From: an uncultured Bacteroidales bacterium
GTDB taxonomy: Bacteria; Bacteroidota; Bacteroidia; Bacteroidales; FEN-979
Assembly: GCA_903925275.1 (NCBI GenBank)
Contig: CAIYES010000562.1
Coordinates: 1-33,908 of the forward strand
DNA length: 33,908 nucleotides
Direction of reading: 5' to 3'
Shown: positions 16,444 to 20,725 of the stretch, piece by piece
Layout: the number at the start of each line of letters is the position of its first letter
Position numbering within the stretch: position 1 is the first letter of the stretch
Translations under genes and position numbers: made by a program
Notes under the pieces: model-generated
What the model saw: the letters and a program-made list of their open reading frames with translations, nothing else
Told to the model about the DNA's origin: nothing
Database searches by the model: none

Positions 16444-16556
16444 ACCTCGCTTCAGAGCAGCGAGGTATCAATTGAATTCTATTTTATAATCCGCTGCTAG
16501 CAGCGGGAATTAACCCAAATGACCCCACCCCATCCCCTCCCCTTGAAGGGGAGGGG
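16444..16556. repeat. three successive palindromes in the PhoH-LruC gap
   Basis: The 309-base gap 16329-16637 holds no gene. It contains an 8-bp stem with arms ACCTCGCT (16444-16451) and AGCGAGGT (16459-16466), the perfect 16-base palindrome CCGCTGCTAGCAGCGG (16491-16506), and CCCCTCCCCTT (16534-16544) pairing with AAGGGGAGGGG (16546-16556). The third resembles a GC-rich repeat seen widely between genes in Bacteroidota (from memory). The gap ends in a terminator at 16587-16608. Confidence 0.8.
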
Positions 16557-16582
16557 GGCAGGGGGAGAGGTCATATAATATT

Positions 16583-16637: not shown

Positions 16638-18668
16638 TCAGGGAGCATAGATAAAGGCGGCATCACGGTATCCCGGATTAGCCTTGTACCAGTTATAGTA
16701 GGTCTGGCCATTTGATTCAACCCATGGAACGAACTTAAGATACACCTTGGTGATTTGATTTTTCTCCGTAGGATATTCATAGTTATCGGAGATGTCAAGT
16801 ACCCAGGGCAGGTTGTTTTTTGTTACATAGTAACGACCGGCGTTAATCTGGCTGTCATCACCTTTGGTTCCGAAATATGACATGTTGGCAAGGTCGGTAG
16901 GTGGATTGTTAATCATATGGATTTCTTTTCCCCTTTCCATATTTGAGATGAGGAATGGGTTGTAAGGCGGCACACCCATGATCGACAGACTTGTTGGGGT
17001 CGTCAGGTTTACTAGGATATGCAGGGTATCGGGTTCGACATAGATACCTCCGGGGGTCGTATTCACACCGATGCCACCATCGCCCGGATATTTTAAAAGG
17101 TTAAAGCCATTGTCGAAGGCGATGATCGTGGCTTTTGACTGTCCGGCTTCGGTACCATTGGTGTTCTGAACAATGTAATTCTCTTCGATATCCATTCCTG
17201 TCACGCTGCTGATCAGCGATGGACTAACCGGTAACTGAATGCCAAATCCGCTGTGTAATGAGGCCCCGATGGCTTTGAGGATGATTGTGGCTTTGATTTG
17301 CACTACCTTATTCTGTCCATTTGTGATCTGGTTGAAACTGTAATCGATAACCATGTCATTCATGTCATAATCTCCCTGGCTTGGCCACAGGTCTTCAAAT
17401 GCGAGTGTCCCCAAGGTGCCTTCAGCCGGATAGAAATTGTTGAATGCCTTCGTCGGATCGGTGGGATAATCGTCGAAATTATTGGATATGCCGTCATTGT
17501 CAGTATCTGTCTGCGTATAGTTCGGCAGAGGGATATTCGTGGTCTGGATGCCCTGGATTGGATTTGCAGTCACATAAAATACCGCATCATTAAAATCATT
17601 ATCCGACCCTCCATCCCTGCGCATATCTTCAAAACCGAGCAAAAATTTGCCCCGGCCTATATCGTTACACAGAATCGTATGTTGTTTCTTATCTGGGTTG
17701 CTTTCAGGGTTAAGGTTTTTATTGGAATAAAGTAAGCCGATACCGTTTGTGATTGTTCCATTGCTCCACCCATTGGCGATAAGCGTCCAGCCGATGGTAG
17801 TTCCTGCAGGGAAAACACCCAGATGTACCCGGTTGCCTGAAGCAAGTCCGCCGCCACTGCCGGCAAATGAAACGTTTGGAAAGATCACGTGGATCGAATC
17901 GATGGCGGCAGGGTTGGCAGGCGGACTGCCGGTAGCGTATCTGTAATATCCCAGAACATTACAGTATCCTGCCCCTTCATGGACAAATGTAACCCACACA
18001 TCCGAAGGTTCTTCAACGATCAGGTTCTGCACATTGGCAGCAGCAAAATACTGTGGATGCGAGGTTGTCAGGTTTAAGTATTCCGGCAAGGTGGCATTGA
18101 TATCTGCAAGCATTGATGCATCGATTGGATCGTTTGTTTGCGTAAGGTAGTTGGGAACACCGTTTGATTTGTAGGTTCCCATCGGATAGACATTGTTCAG
18201 CGTCGATTTGAAGATGCCGCCATCTTTCAGGTTAACTACCGGATGTTTTCCGCCCAACTGGCAGGAGAGGGAACCATTCCTGATACTGAATTTCTGAGCA
18301 TTGGCAAAGCCAATGGCCGTAGTGGCCACAACAACCGAATCAAGATGAGCCGGAAAAATATAATCAAGCGTATAAAATCCATTAGCATCGGTAACCCCCG
18401 AAACGAAGCACTTGCCTCCCATTTCCGGATAGTCATTGTATATACCTACCCTTATATTCGATATTGGATTGCCCATGTTATCGAGGGTGCGAATATTGAT
18501 TCCCACATCCGTTATGGTTTTAAATAAAAAACCGGAAGGGACATGCATGTCAGTAATAGAAGTACTTTGCTGTACGTCGGGAGTTGCTGCTTTCCTGCAG
18601 GAGGGAATGATCAGGACAATGATCAAAAGTGTCAGAATAAAAATGATGGTGTTTATTTTTGTTTTCAT
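16638..18668 (-). CDS. LruC-domain surface lipoprotein
   Basis: This 676-residue lipoprotein has signal MKTKINTIIFILTLLIIVLI and lipobox PSC with Cys24. Residues about 45-130 form a carboxypeptidase-regulatory-like beta domain (NIRTLDNMGNPISNIRVGIY). A DUF4114-like part follows, with FLLGFEDMRRDGGSDNDFND near 345. The calcium-loop-like sequence DTDNDGISNNFDDYPTDP comes next, then the LruC domain with FEDLWPSQGDYDMNDMVIDY near 425 and beyond. Acidic D-x-D-x-D loops suggest Ca2+ binding. LruC proteins were first named in Leptospira; function is unknown and surface or adhesive roles are guesses. The start at 18668 is chosen over 18704 because it begins the signal peptide. It has a sigma-54-type promoter and lies downstream of a sigma-54 activator gene. 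Confidence 0.8.
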   Translation of the reverse strand: MKTKINTIIFILTLLIIVLIIPSCRKAATPDVQQSTSITDMHVPSGFLFKTITDVGINIRTLDNMGNPISNIRVGIYNDYPEMGGKCFVSGVTDANGFYTLDYIFPAHLDSVVVATTAIGFANAQKFSIRNGSLSCQLGGKHPVVNLKDGGIFKSTLNNVYPMGTYKSNGVPNYLTQTNDPIDASMLADINATLPEYLNLTTSHPQYFAAANVQNLIVEEPSDVWVTFVHEGAGYCNVLGYYRYATGSPPANPAAIDSIHVIFPNVSFAGSGGGLASGNRVHLGVFPAGTTIGWTLIANGWSNGTITNGIGLLYSNKNLNPESNPDKKQHTILCNDIGRGKFLLGFEDMRRDGGSDNDFNDAVFYVTANPIQGIQTTNIPLPNYTQTDTDNDGISNNFDDYPTDPTKAFNNFYPAEGTLGTLAFEDLWPSQGDYDMNDMVIDYSFNQITNGQNKVVQIKATIILKAIGASLHSGFGIQLPVSPSLISSVTGMDIEENYIVQNTNGTEAGQSKATIIAFDNGFNLLKYPGDGGIGVNTTPGGIYVEPDTLHILVNLTTPTSLSIMGVPPYNPFLISNMERGKEIHMINNPPTDLANMSYFGTKGDDSQINAGRYYVTKNNLPWVLDISDNYEYPTEKNQITKVYLKFVPWVESNGQTYYNWYKANPGYRDAAFIYAP

Positions 18669-18697
18669 ATATGTTTCTTTGTTTATGAAAAACCATG

Positions 18698-18713
18698 TGC
18701 ACACATTATGCCA
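18698..18713 (-). promoter_or_regulatory. sigma-54 (RpoN) promoter for the LruC-domain gene
   Basis: The minus strand reads TGGCATAATGTGTGCA, with GG and GC separated by exactly 10 bases. It matches the -24/-12 consensus TGGCACG-N4-TTGCW at nine of twelve fixed positions, including all of TGGCA and TGCA. Transcription would start near 18688, about 20 nt before ATG 18668. No TAnnTTTG element is present. The neighbouring gene encodes a sigma-54 activator, which strengthens the call. Confidence 0.6.
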
Positions 18714-18852
18714 TTTTTATTGAAAAATATTATTGTATTGATAATGAGTGAATTAAAAAATACCAAATTAATGAACTTTCTCATATCGGGATAGTTTTCC
18801 CGTTTTTAGAAAATAAAAGTGAGCCTGAAAAAAATTATATCAATAGAAAGGA

Positions 18853-20193
18853 TTATAACCGGTTCTCCTGTTTCATTCGATAGATCGTCGATTTACCAAT
18901 TTTCAGTTTCTGCGAAACAATGGCAATGTCCTTGTACTTGTTCAGGTACATGCTGATGATCCGGGCACAATAATCATCCAGCGATATCTCCTCTTCAAAA
19001 TAAAAGCCGGTATTGTTAATCACAGGAAAGGTGATATCACTTGACTGGAGTACGTCACCTTCGGCCATCACCGCGGCAACTTCGACCACTGCTTTGAGTT
19101 CTCTGACATTTCCCGGGTAGGAATAAGCCAGGAGTTTTTCTTTCAGCCCTTCTGAAAATGTAAGTTTCTTCAATTTGTTTTCAGCGCAGAACACATCCGA
19201 GAAATGTTTTGCAAGCAAAAGGATATCATTTCCTCTCTCCCGCAGAGGAGGCAGCGGGATGGGAAGGCCAAGAAGCCGATAATACAAATCTTCACGGAAG
19301 GTCCCTTTTCTCACCTCTTCGGCAAGGTCCTTGTTTGTTGCGGTAATGACACGGATGTCGAACTTTACGAGTTCCTTTCCCCCGATCCTGGTCACTTCCC
19401 TTTCCTGCAATGCACGGAGTAGCTTCGACTGCATCTGCACCTCCATTTCACTGATCTCATCCAGGAAAAGCGTCCCACCGTCAGCCTCTTCGAATTTCCC
19501 TGTTTTGCGTGCCATCGCCCCGGTAAATGCCCCCTTTTCATAGCCGAAAAGTTCGCTTTCCAGCAGATCCTTCGGAATGGCTGCCATGTTCACTGCAACA
19601 AATGGCTTCTTGCGTCGCGACGATGCATAATGGACAGCTTTGGCAACAAGTTCCTTTCCTGTTCCGGTTTCCCCGGTAATAGACACAGTGATGGCTGACC
19701 GGGATGCCCTTTCAATCAGCGAATGCAATTTGATGACTGCCGGGTTCTGCCCGAGGATGGTCTTGTCGAATTCAAATTTCCGCCCTACCTCCTCCTGCAA
19801 GATCTCTATCTGCTTCTGAAAATTAAAATGTTCCCTGATCTTGAGGATGACATTCCATAGCCTTTGTCTTGTATTTTCTTCCTTTGTAAGATAATCATAG
19901 GCTCCCTCTTTGAGCAGTTTCACTGCAGTAGCAACATCTTCCTGTCCCGAAACAATTATTACCTGGATGTCAGGATTGTATTGCTTGATCCGCTTGAGGA
20001 TATCACTGCCGGTAAGGTCAGGCAATGAATAATCAAGTGTGATGACTGAGGGGTTCCGGTAAAGGTTCTTCAGCAGATCCTGTCCGTTGGAAAACAGTTG
20101 CACATCATAATCGGGGTTGAGCGACAGATGGTGCTCAAGGATCTTACCGAAAATAGGGTCGTCCTCAACAATAAAAATAGAAAAGTCACTCAT
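18853..20193 (-). CDS. sigma-54-dependent response regulator, NtrC/AtoC type
   Basis: This 446-residue activator has three parts. The receiver (1-120) has the acidic pocket Glu10-Asp11-Asp12, phospho-acceptor Asp54 (ITLDYSLPDL), Ser82 and Lys104. The AAA+ domain (about 145-385) has Walker A GETGTGKE (174-181), the sigma-54 contact loop GAFTGA (221-226) and Walker B GGTLFLDE (239-246). A short Fis-like helix-turn-helix lies at the C-terminus (about 420-446, IAIVSQKLKIGKSTIYRMKQ). It should open sigma-54 promoters when phosphorylated. No histidine kinase gene is in the window, so its input is unknown. It follows the 172-residue unknown gene by 13 bases, and its likely target, the LruC gene with a GG-N10-GC promoter, is the next gene downstream. 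Confidence 0.95.
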   Translation of the reverse strand: MSDFSIFIVEDDPIFGKILEHHLSLNPDYDVQLFSNGQDLLKNLYRNPSVITLDYSLPDLTGSDILKRIKQYNPDIQVIIVSGQEDVATAVKLLKEGAYDYLTKEENTRQRLWNVILKIREHFNFQKQIEILQEEVGRKFEFDKTILGQNPAVIKLHSLIERASRSAITVSITGETGTGKELVAKAVHYASSRRKKPFVAVNMAAIPKDLLESELFGYEKGAFTGAMARKTGKFEEADGGTLFLDEISEMEVQMQSKLLRALQEREVTRIGGKELVKFDIRVITATNKDLAEEVRKGTFREDLYYRLLGLPIPLPPLRERGNDILLLAKHFSDVFCAENKLKKLTFSEGLKEKLLAYSYPGNVRELKAVVEVAAVMAEGDVLQSSDITFPVINNTGFYFEEEISLDDYCARIISMYLNKYKDIAIVSQKLKIGKSTIYRMKQENRL

Positions 20194-20206: not shown

Positions 20207-20725
20207 TCAAACAGTCGCTTCGATTTCGATAATCATATCCTGTGGAGCGGTGTTATTCCCGCCAAAATAAGGATAGAGCCGGAAACAAAGATTGGGGTCG
20301 GGATGCAGATTATCCATCAGTACAGTAACCCCGTTGACCGTGATGGCATATTTGTTTCCCTGAACTTCAATACATCCGGTACAGGATTGTCCTACCTGAA
20401 CAGAGGTGATATACTGGTAGGTAAATTTGGGGTCTGCCGCTTTTTGATCATAGGTATAACCATAAATTTTTATTTTCCCATTGACAGTAAAATCGGGGGC
20501 CCATGTTAATCTTACCGAGTTGCTATGGACACTAAGCCCATAGGCAATGCCGGTAAGTTTATTCAGGTCATTGTCGTCGTTGTTCCGCGGAGGAGCCCAC
20601 CAGCATGAGCTTTGCAAAACAAACCTTACGGAATATTTCTTTAATTTCCAGCCAATGTCTCCGAGTCTTTCAAAAATACTCATGGAGCAATAATGGTTTC
20701 CTTTTTTAATCAGGTACTGTTTCAT
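20207..20725 (-). CDS. conserved-looking protein of unknown function, cotranscribed with the response regulator
   Basis: This 172-residue protein begins MKQYLIKKGNHYCSMSIFER and has no signal peptide or membrane segment. It is rich in beta-type patches (SVRLTWAPDFTVNGKIKIYG, NKYAITVNGVTVLM, LCFRLYPYFGGNN) and has four Cys, including CTGC near 115. The pattern of a KKGxHY start, then LNKLTGIAYGLSVHSNSVRLTW, reminds me of a Bacteroidota family of unknown function with an SARFGWR segment, but I cannot confirm this. A beta-sandwich fold is likely. It sits 13 bases upstream of the response regulator on the same strand, so a role in that regulatory pathway is possible. Confidence 0.7.
   Translation of the reverse strand: MKQYLIKKGNHYCSMSIFERLGDIGWKLKKYSVRFVLQSSCWWAPPRNNDDNDLNKLTGIAYGLSVHSNSVRLTWAPDFTVNGKIKIYGYTYDQKAADPKFTYQYITSVQVGQSCTGCIEVQGNKYAITVNGVTVLMDNLHPDPNLCFRLYPYFGGNNTAPQDMIIEIEATV

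Follow-up and report, generated by a model that had tools for sequence, protein, structure and literature searches.

A conserved, probable sigma-54-type promoter before an LruC-domain lipoprotein gene of Bacteroidales, with an NtrC-family response regulator as its probable activator

Introduction

In an uncultured Bacteroidales bacterium, the gene for an LruC-domain lipoprotein is preceded by a short sequence resembling a -24/-12 promoter and, next upstream on the same strand, by the gene for an NtrC-type activator. This arrangement raises the question of whether the short sequence is a sigma-54 promoter at all and, if so, whether the neighboring regulator is the one that would operate it. A sequence-only reading of this DNA had answered both in the affirmative, proposing a circuit from a signal through the response regulator to a surface LruC protein. 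The window, that is, the whole stretch of 33,908 nucleotides that was analysed, is contig C562 of a 5.65 Mb draft genome made of 574 contigs, the nearest named relatives of which are, according to protein searches, uncultured Bacteroidales/Bacteroidetes drafts.

The polA–phoH locus and its parts

Between polA and a PhoH/PIN gene, the minus strand of the window carries three genes, encoding P0003, an NtrC-type response regulator and an LruC-domain lipoprotein. The features relevant here are the following:

16638..18668, minus strand: LruC-domain lipoprotein gene, 676 aa (Pfam, NCBIfam, translation, fold)
18687, minus strand: predicted transcription start with a leader of about 19 nt, 12 nt below the -12 element
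18698..18713, minus strand: putative -24/-12 promoter element TGGCATAATGTGTGCA, with TGGCA-N8-G kept in place in 10/10 close orthologues
18787..18811, minus strand: candidate activator-binding (enhancer) site TTCTAAAAACGGGAAAACTATCCCG, from half-site and TTCC-N7-GGAA counts
18853..20193, minus strand: NtrC-family response regulator/sigma-54 enhancer-binding protein, 446 aa, GAFTGA (Pfam, NCBIfam)
20207..20725, minus strand: P0003, 172 aa, of no known family, 13 nt upstream of the regulator gene

At E 0.001, P0003 matched no family in either Pfam or NCBIfam. A cluster initially considered as a gene (c12) was dropped, as it corresponds to an ORF antisense to the P0003 homologues. Downstream of the LruC gene, at positions 16520-16570, lies a C-run followed by a G-run (ccccaccccatcccctccccttgaaggggaggggggcaggggg), which is perhaps a repeat element or a terminator.

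The promoter motif and its chance level

The element is present on the minus strand at 18698-18713, where it had been reported, with GG-N10-GC intact and its T placed 45 bp before the LruC ATG (18668). If the C of the motif is taken as -12, transcription would start near 18687, and the predicted leader of about 19 nt is close to the 20 nt originally anticipated. Taken by itself, the motif was rejected as evidence, being near chance in the window and in control upstreams: TGGCN7TTGCW with up to two mismatches occurs 205 times in the window versus 189 ± 14 expected, GG-N10-GC is found in the same upstream range in 24/226 non-LruC control genes and in 13/110 genes of a second control set, and TGGC-N9-GC in 3/226 and 1/110 of these upstreams. 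The genome has one PF04552 (RpoN) match over cut-off. Strict sigma-54 patterns were near control levels in this genome (5 versus 3 and 7 versus 4), and in ten genomes they yielded 65 matches versus 21 in the control, most of those inspected lying inside ORFs.

The motif might be a chance match, with the primary Bacteroidota sigma factor transcribing LruC; that GG-N10-GC is as common as 24/226 in control upstreams fits such an explanation. What lifts the motif above chance is that its place is conserved among LruC orthologues. LruC relatives are present in 33 of the 43 genomes of the family, and the orthologue set comprised the window gene plus nine LruC genes of 61-74% identity. All ten genes (at least 61% identity) have TGGCA-N8-G 45-77 bp before the ATG, within far more variable flanks, and the majority sequence of the ten sites is TGGCAYGGTTNTCGTA. 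At the -12 C position, C is found in the window only, the remaining genes having T (six), G (two) or A (one). Since the C is kept in the window only, the GG-N10-GC that had been described as invariant becomes GG-N10-G here: the GG and the following G stand in 10/10 orthologues, but the C is absent in 9/10. Likewise, the search for GG-N10-GC above orthologous LruC genes that had been proposed as a check recovers GG-N10-G in 10/10 but the GC in 1/10. As a separate observation, LruC relatives reach up to 13 matches in one family genome (G020), and the genome under study has one.

The 15 full-length LruC genes of the family with at most 60% identity (L027-L041) present the opposite picture. TGGCA-N8-G is missing from the nearest 130 bp in all of them, and 12 carry, at -19 to -40, TAnnTTTG, which is known in Bacteroidota as the -7 box of the primary sigma factor (PMC9723704); this is the other point in favor of transcription by that factor. 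Among the ten orthologues, however, the box appears in one (at -47), and nine, the window included, lack it within 110 bp of the ATG. Because TGGCA-N8-G and TAnnTTTG distribute oppositely, one group of LruC genes looks, on the basis of these upstream regions, sigma-54-driven and the other sigma-A-driven. Considering also that all ten orthologues conserve the place, the spacing and the offset-13 G (a G also seen in 22/29 genes phylum-wide, as described below), a chance match appears very unlikely, and a sigma-54-type promoter is the preferred explanation.

Calibration with groES

A further alternative is that the conserved block is the site of another factor, either an ECF sigma factor or a repressor, given that the -12 C is not conserved and that the sites of the relatives are not textbook sigma-54 promoters. 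The groES genes allow a calibration, as in Flavobacterium psychrophilum groES is described as having a promoter of the SM4 (sigma-54) class (PMC9723704). Upstream of groES, TGGCAYA-N5-TG[AT] was found in 19/19 genomes of the genus, a count that leaves out three second-copy loci (L343-L345); in the genome under study, the site is TGGCATAAAATGTGAC (L335, C250), 80 bp before groES. In place of the -12 C, 18 of these genomes have A and one has T, and L330 has a second match, TGGCACTTATCCTGCC, with GC, 18 bp further down. The window LruC site itself fits the TGGCAYA-N5-TG of the groES sites. As the -12 C is also missing at groES, its loss reads as a habit of the lineage rather than as the loss of a promoter, and it follows that searches demanding GG-N10-GC miss sigma-54-type promoters in this lineage. 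This shared deviation in 19/19 genomes, at a gene with a sigma-54-class promoter in F. psychrophilum, and the spacing of TGGCAY-N5-T-N-G, which is that of sigma-54, make the involvement of another factor most improbable.

Several other sequences were noticed along the way. Further upstream of groES, many of the 19 genus genomes share blocks such as ATGTCCAGATT and TGTCAGATTGTCAGCA, which may serve as binding sites for an activator. The sequences TGGCACGTTTGTTGTA and TGGCATGTTTCTTGTA lie just above a CKVCH-motif gene (cytochrome-like; L094:1501) and a similar gene (L106:1501), respectively. A conserved block, TTGGCACGATTTTCG[CT], is located 299-361 bp before a gene whose product starts with MKRI[AL]G, which we take to be HtrA/DegP-like, in 8/10 genomes; it is also found in a ninth (G018), where the ORF listing contains no such downstream gene. 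In all nine genomes (L120:1501-1516, on contig C257 of the genome under study, L095, L113, L119, L125, L132, L133, L137 and L148), mechanical calling places the block within the early portion of an ORF that runs the opposite way. It is likely a second promoter of the sigma-54 type, with either a long leader or a small RNA that is not annotated.

The promoter motif in LruC genes beyond the genus

TGGCAY was found between -115 and -30 in 29 of 90 unique full-length LruC genes. Of these 29, which were not selected for what follows, 22 have G at offset 13, 26 have T at offset 11 and three have C at offset 14; when relatives of at least 61% are removed, G13 is kept in 13/20, each of the other offsets from 7 to 23 reaching at most four. 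The full pattern, TGGCAY-N5-T-N-G, precedes 19/86 LruC genes versus 2/238 other genes whose upstream regions are noncoding (p = 3e-10 when relatedness is disregarded) and 11/76 LruC genes without the close group, counts that are not independent events, as the LruC sequences are related. A fixed consensus score of at least 11 was reached by 26/80 LruC genes versus 12/284 controls, six of these 12 being LruC genes or alternative starts of LruC genes. Loci L165 and L206, which fall outside the strict counts because the start-codon rule chose other ATGs, carry TGGCACAATTCTTGAC under an alternative start rule. When 395 genomes were sampled across the phylum, 17 had an LruC match (the genome under study included), giving 20 loci and 18 distinct upstreams, only one of which (L246) has TGGCAY. 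Sigma-54-type control of LruC is, as judged from these upstreams, present in several lineages and, because of this last result, far from universal.

In L218:1-8076, three tandem genes for LruC-type lipoproteins were observed, each with a sigma-54-like site (TGGCATATATATTGAC, CGGCACGATAATTGTT and TGGCATATAAATTGTT), and directly before them lies a gene for an activator, truncated where the locus ends.

The regulator, its distribution and its linkage to LruC

The gene next upstream on the same strand (18853-20193) encodes, as had been stated, an NtrC-type activator with GAFTGA. It matches the receiver (PF00072) and Sigma54_activat (PF00158) families in Pfam, and its C-terminal end, KSTIYRMKQENRL, has by eye the appearance of an HTH, for which there was no Pfam match. 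No named equivalog (NtrC, AtoC, ZraR) could be assigned, the protein being below cut-off for all 25 NCBIfam models listed of 88.

The notion that LruC lies beside its activator stands for the window, where the regulator is directly upstream, but for the window only among the ten genus genomes with this LruC. In two others, the regulator is two genes from LruC (G012, L080/L158; G025, L082/L156, on the downstream side), and in the remaining seven, it is away from it. Six genomes (that of the window and five others) retain P0003 between polA and phoH. It is followed there by the regulator in G021 and G022, where this LruC is absent, by LruC in G013, G018 and G023, and by both in the window. The window may thus present the fullest, ancestral version of the polA–P0003–phoH locus, or a gain.

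These rearrangements bear on a third alternative, namely that LruC does have a sigma-54 promoter but is driven by another activator of the genome, the neighboring regulator merely reflecting the history of the polA–P0003–phoH locus. The loci with regulator and no LruC, and those with LruC and no regulator, are in agreement with it, as is the fact that, of the 14 Sigma54_activat matches over cut-off in the genome, eight are strong (E ≤ 5e-56). However, the three genomes with P0003, LruC and phoH but no regulator in between (G013, G018, G023) hold a 60-62% identical regulator elsewhere.

The co-occurrence of both elements can be followed more widely. The regulator subfamily (E ≤ 1e-100) occurs in 13/43 family genomes, plus a copy broken at a contig edge in G014/G044. 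Among the 19 genus genomes, ten have the LruC promoter and the regulator, two the regulator only and seven neither (p = 0.0007); without the broken copy, the numbers are nine with both, one with LruC only, two with the regulator only and seven with neither (p = 0.005). Across the phylum, 49 genomes were surveyed, comprising 26 motif-positive ones (score ≥ 10.9) and 23 of 24 chosen motif-negative ones (score < 9; L225 left out), and thus covering neither intermediate-score nor remaining LruC loci. The regulator, called at E ≤ 1e-140 plus the broken copy of G044, was found in 21/26 motif-positive versus 9/23 motif-negative genomes (p = 0.004), with G073 and G083, whose best matches had E values of 6e-89 and 2e-99, counted as lacking it. 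Nine of the 26 and two of the 23 belong to the genus (matched by the same contig places), and without them the association is weak (12/17 versus 8/21, p = 0.058). The presence of RpoN was rejected as a discriminator, since 47/49 genomes have it (25/26 motif-positive and 22/23 motif-negative); L173 is motif-positive without an RpoN match, and its counterpart G011 is 81% complete.

Proximity points in the same direction, considering activators of any kind. An activator is encoded within two genes of 5/27 motif-positive LruC loci (score ≥ 10.9) versus 0/53 other LruC loci (p = 0.003), and directly upstream of 3/27 versus 0/53 (p = 0.04), all of them lower bounds, as certain loci are too short to include two neighboring genes. 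The activators directly upstream of LruC in L204 and L218 are of other subfamilies.

An Hpt-like gene (PF01627, 17.8 bits, below the cut-off of 24.6) lies beside 9/30 regulator loci. There is none beside the window regulator, but seven of the nine further genus genomes that have this LruC show such a gene beside the regulator, which suggests a phosphorelay as the input.

A candidate enhancer repeat

Some 75-100 bp upstream of the -24 box, at window positions 18787-18811, there is an inverted repeat of the TTCC-N7-GGAA type with one mismatch, phased with -24, which is a candidate site for the activator. A TCCC[AG] half-site lies at -77 to -80 relative to the -24 T in 8/10 genus sequences, and six of these eight have a GGGA partner flanking it on one side or on both. 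At least two half-sites within 30 bp occur in 7/10 genus sequences (absent in L018, L022 and L023), compared with a shuffle mean of 0.04 that never exceeded one, the count having been made after viewing the same ten sequences in which the motif arose; two half-sites also occur in 12/115 noncoding control regions, LruC genes being among these controls. An initial count of dyads above -24 was barely higher than the background (best dyad in 6/10, shuffle maxima 3-5).

With at most one mismatch, TTCC-N7-GGAA is found in 6/10 genus LruC promoters. Outside the genus, it is present in 5/12 promoters (ten genomes) with the regulator, against a shuffle mean of 0.17, namely one of two in L162 plus L171, L180, L201 and L211; the other seven lack a good repeat, and so do all five promoters (four genomes) without the regulator. 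The contrast of 5/12 versus 0/5 has p = 0.24, and 2/14 and 3/8 candidates, respectively, had been left out as having no -24/-12 site by the rule. Within Emticicia, L211, with the regulator, has TTCCAAAAAATGGAA, and among the isolates without it (L210, L216 and L229), L216 and one L229 gene have no such repeat. In L221 (Mucilaginibacter psychrotolerans NH7-4), the promoter-like site is TGGCACTGCACTTGTA, the regulator is present (G066) and the best TTCC-N7-GGAA has three mismatches.

A search for the exact palindrome, TTCCCRNNNYGGGAA, in 12 genomes gave 43 places versus 14 for the reversed control. Of the 39 inspected, most lie in ORFs and five have a loose sigma-54 match within 200 bp, the only intergenic one being an LruC place (L261); the other four comprise three known LruC promoters and G023:C573, which was left out. 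The exact palindrome is thus present at four LruC promoters, and no wider regulon is established from this search.

The 5/12 versus 0/5 contrast also argues against an activator other than this regulator, as does, together with the regulators held elsewhere, the fact that even in L204 and L218, LruC is directly preceded by activators, albeit of other subfamilies. All in all, control by a different activator is considered unlikely, and the regulator encoded in the window is preferred.

The LruC lipoprotein

The predicted product starts with a lipobox-like IPSC, followed by an N-terminal beta domain, DUF4114, an acidic DTDNDG stretch and the DUF4842/LruC domain. It matches PF16130 and TIGR04456 (258.9 bits, cut-off 36) and is the only TIGR04456 match in its genome. 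S23 and C24 are invariant in the ten orthologues. The structure model (pLDDT 90.9) matches 3oqq, a putative Bacteroides ovatus lipoprotein (E 1.2e-10), and, weakly, transthyretin-like and pilin domains. In 50 relatives, the acidic motifs D356, D358, N360 and D361, D388, D390 and D392, and D433, D435, N437 and D438 are invariant, and those of DUF4114 and DUF4842 are perhaps calcium-binding. Plausibly, the lipoprotein would act as an adhesin or a glycan binder. Acidic residues after the lipobox cysteine can constitute a surface-export signal, and no clear one can be read in the CRKAATPD that follows the lipobox-like stretch. Neither this nor the inner-leaflet position reported for the LruC protein of Leptospira (PMC5406399) supports the surface location originally proposed. 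The DUF4114 domain of PilY1.1 is described as having a predicted calcium pocket, and the domain is also found in sugar-binding proteins (PMC9109919).

The earlier statement that LruC regulation is undescribed needs qualification, as some expression data exist: the Leptospira LruC-domain gene LIC20172 appears in an expression table of PMC8638967 as 'up AB', with no sigma-54 link in the part of the article available. By their titles, the open papers on the LruC domain concern Leptospira. The Bacteroidota sigma-54 targets named in the accessible part of PMC12316311 are chaperones, proteases and an ABC permease. Supplements aside, the open literature yielded no link between LruC and sigma-54, and hence no earlier description of a sigma-54-controlled LruC target was found.

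A model for the circuit

These observations can be integrated in a model that, on genomic grounds, we hold to be probable: the response regulator would bind TTCC-N7-GGAA and drive LruC through sigma-54 at TGGCATAATGTGTGCA. The original proposal, a sigma-54 promoter on LruC under the control of this type of regulator, thereby gains support from the comparison, to which a candidate enhancer is added. According to this model, a signal entering by a phosphorelay via the Hpt-like protein would lead to phosphorylation of the NtrC-type regulator, which would bind the inverted repeat at 18787-18811; its AAA+ GAFTGA domain would then open the LruC -24/-12 promoter for RNA polymerase carrying the single RpoN of the genome. 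In the relatives, the same regulator would act in trans from another locus.

A broader reading is put forward tentatively. It would recognize a single conserved, mobile, Hpt-fed regulator subfamily of Bacteroidota, with DUF4114-LruC as its dedicated main target via TTCC-N7-GGAA plus TGGCAY-N5-T-N-G. The unrelated activators of L204 and L218 would have taken the target over, which, within this reading, implies that sigma-54 control arose or was kept repeatedly. The circuit offers a handle on the function of the LruC lipoproteins.

Comparison with known systems

Classical NtrC-RpoN circuits combine a regulator with receiver and AAA+ GAFTGA domains, a distal inverted repeat and a -24/-12 promoter. 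The same parts are predicted here, with the difference that the -12 C is not conserved in the lineage. Leptospira LruC (LIC20172; PMC5406399, PMC8638967) shares the LruC/DUF4842 domain and the lipoprotein nature, but it is reported at the inner leaflet of the outer membrane (PMC5406399), and its expression was recorded in a PerRA/PerRB study whose accessible part draws no connection to sigma-54 (PMC8638967). The HsfB-HsfA/PilY1.1 system of Myxococcus xanthus belongs to another phylum, its target is a pilus-tip protein and not an LruC lipoprotein, and the term 'sigma54' is absent from the main text of the article; it is alike, however, in that a surface protein with DUF4114 is encoded by a gene whose promoter is bound by an NtrC-like response regulator belonging to a phosphorelay (PMC9109919).

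The closest setting is the sigma-54 regulon (SM4) of F. psychrophilum (PMC9723704), also a member of the Bacteroidota with one sigma-54 factor and -24/-12 promoters. These promoters precede chaperone genes, a gliding adhesin operon and lipoproteins, and the one of remFG-sprCDBF was tested by mutagenesis. The printed selection of that regulon contains no LruC/DUF4114 protein, and no activator is paired with a target or an enhancer in the part of the article available. Whereas the Bacteroidota sigma-54 activators were, in that account, unmatched to their targets, the present analysis puts forward an activator subfamily together with a likely DNA site and a likely target gene.
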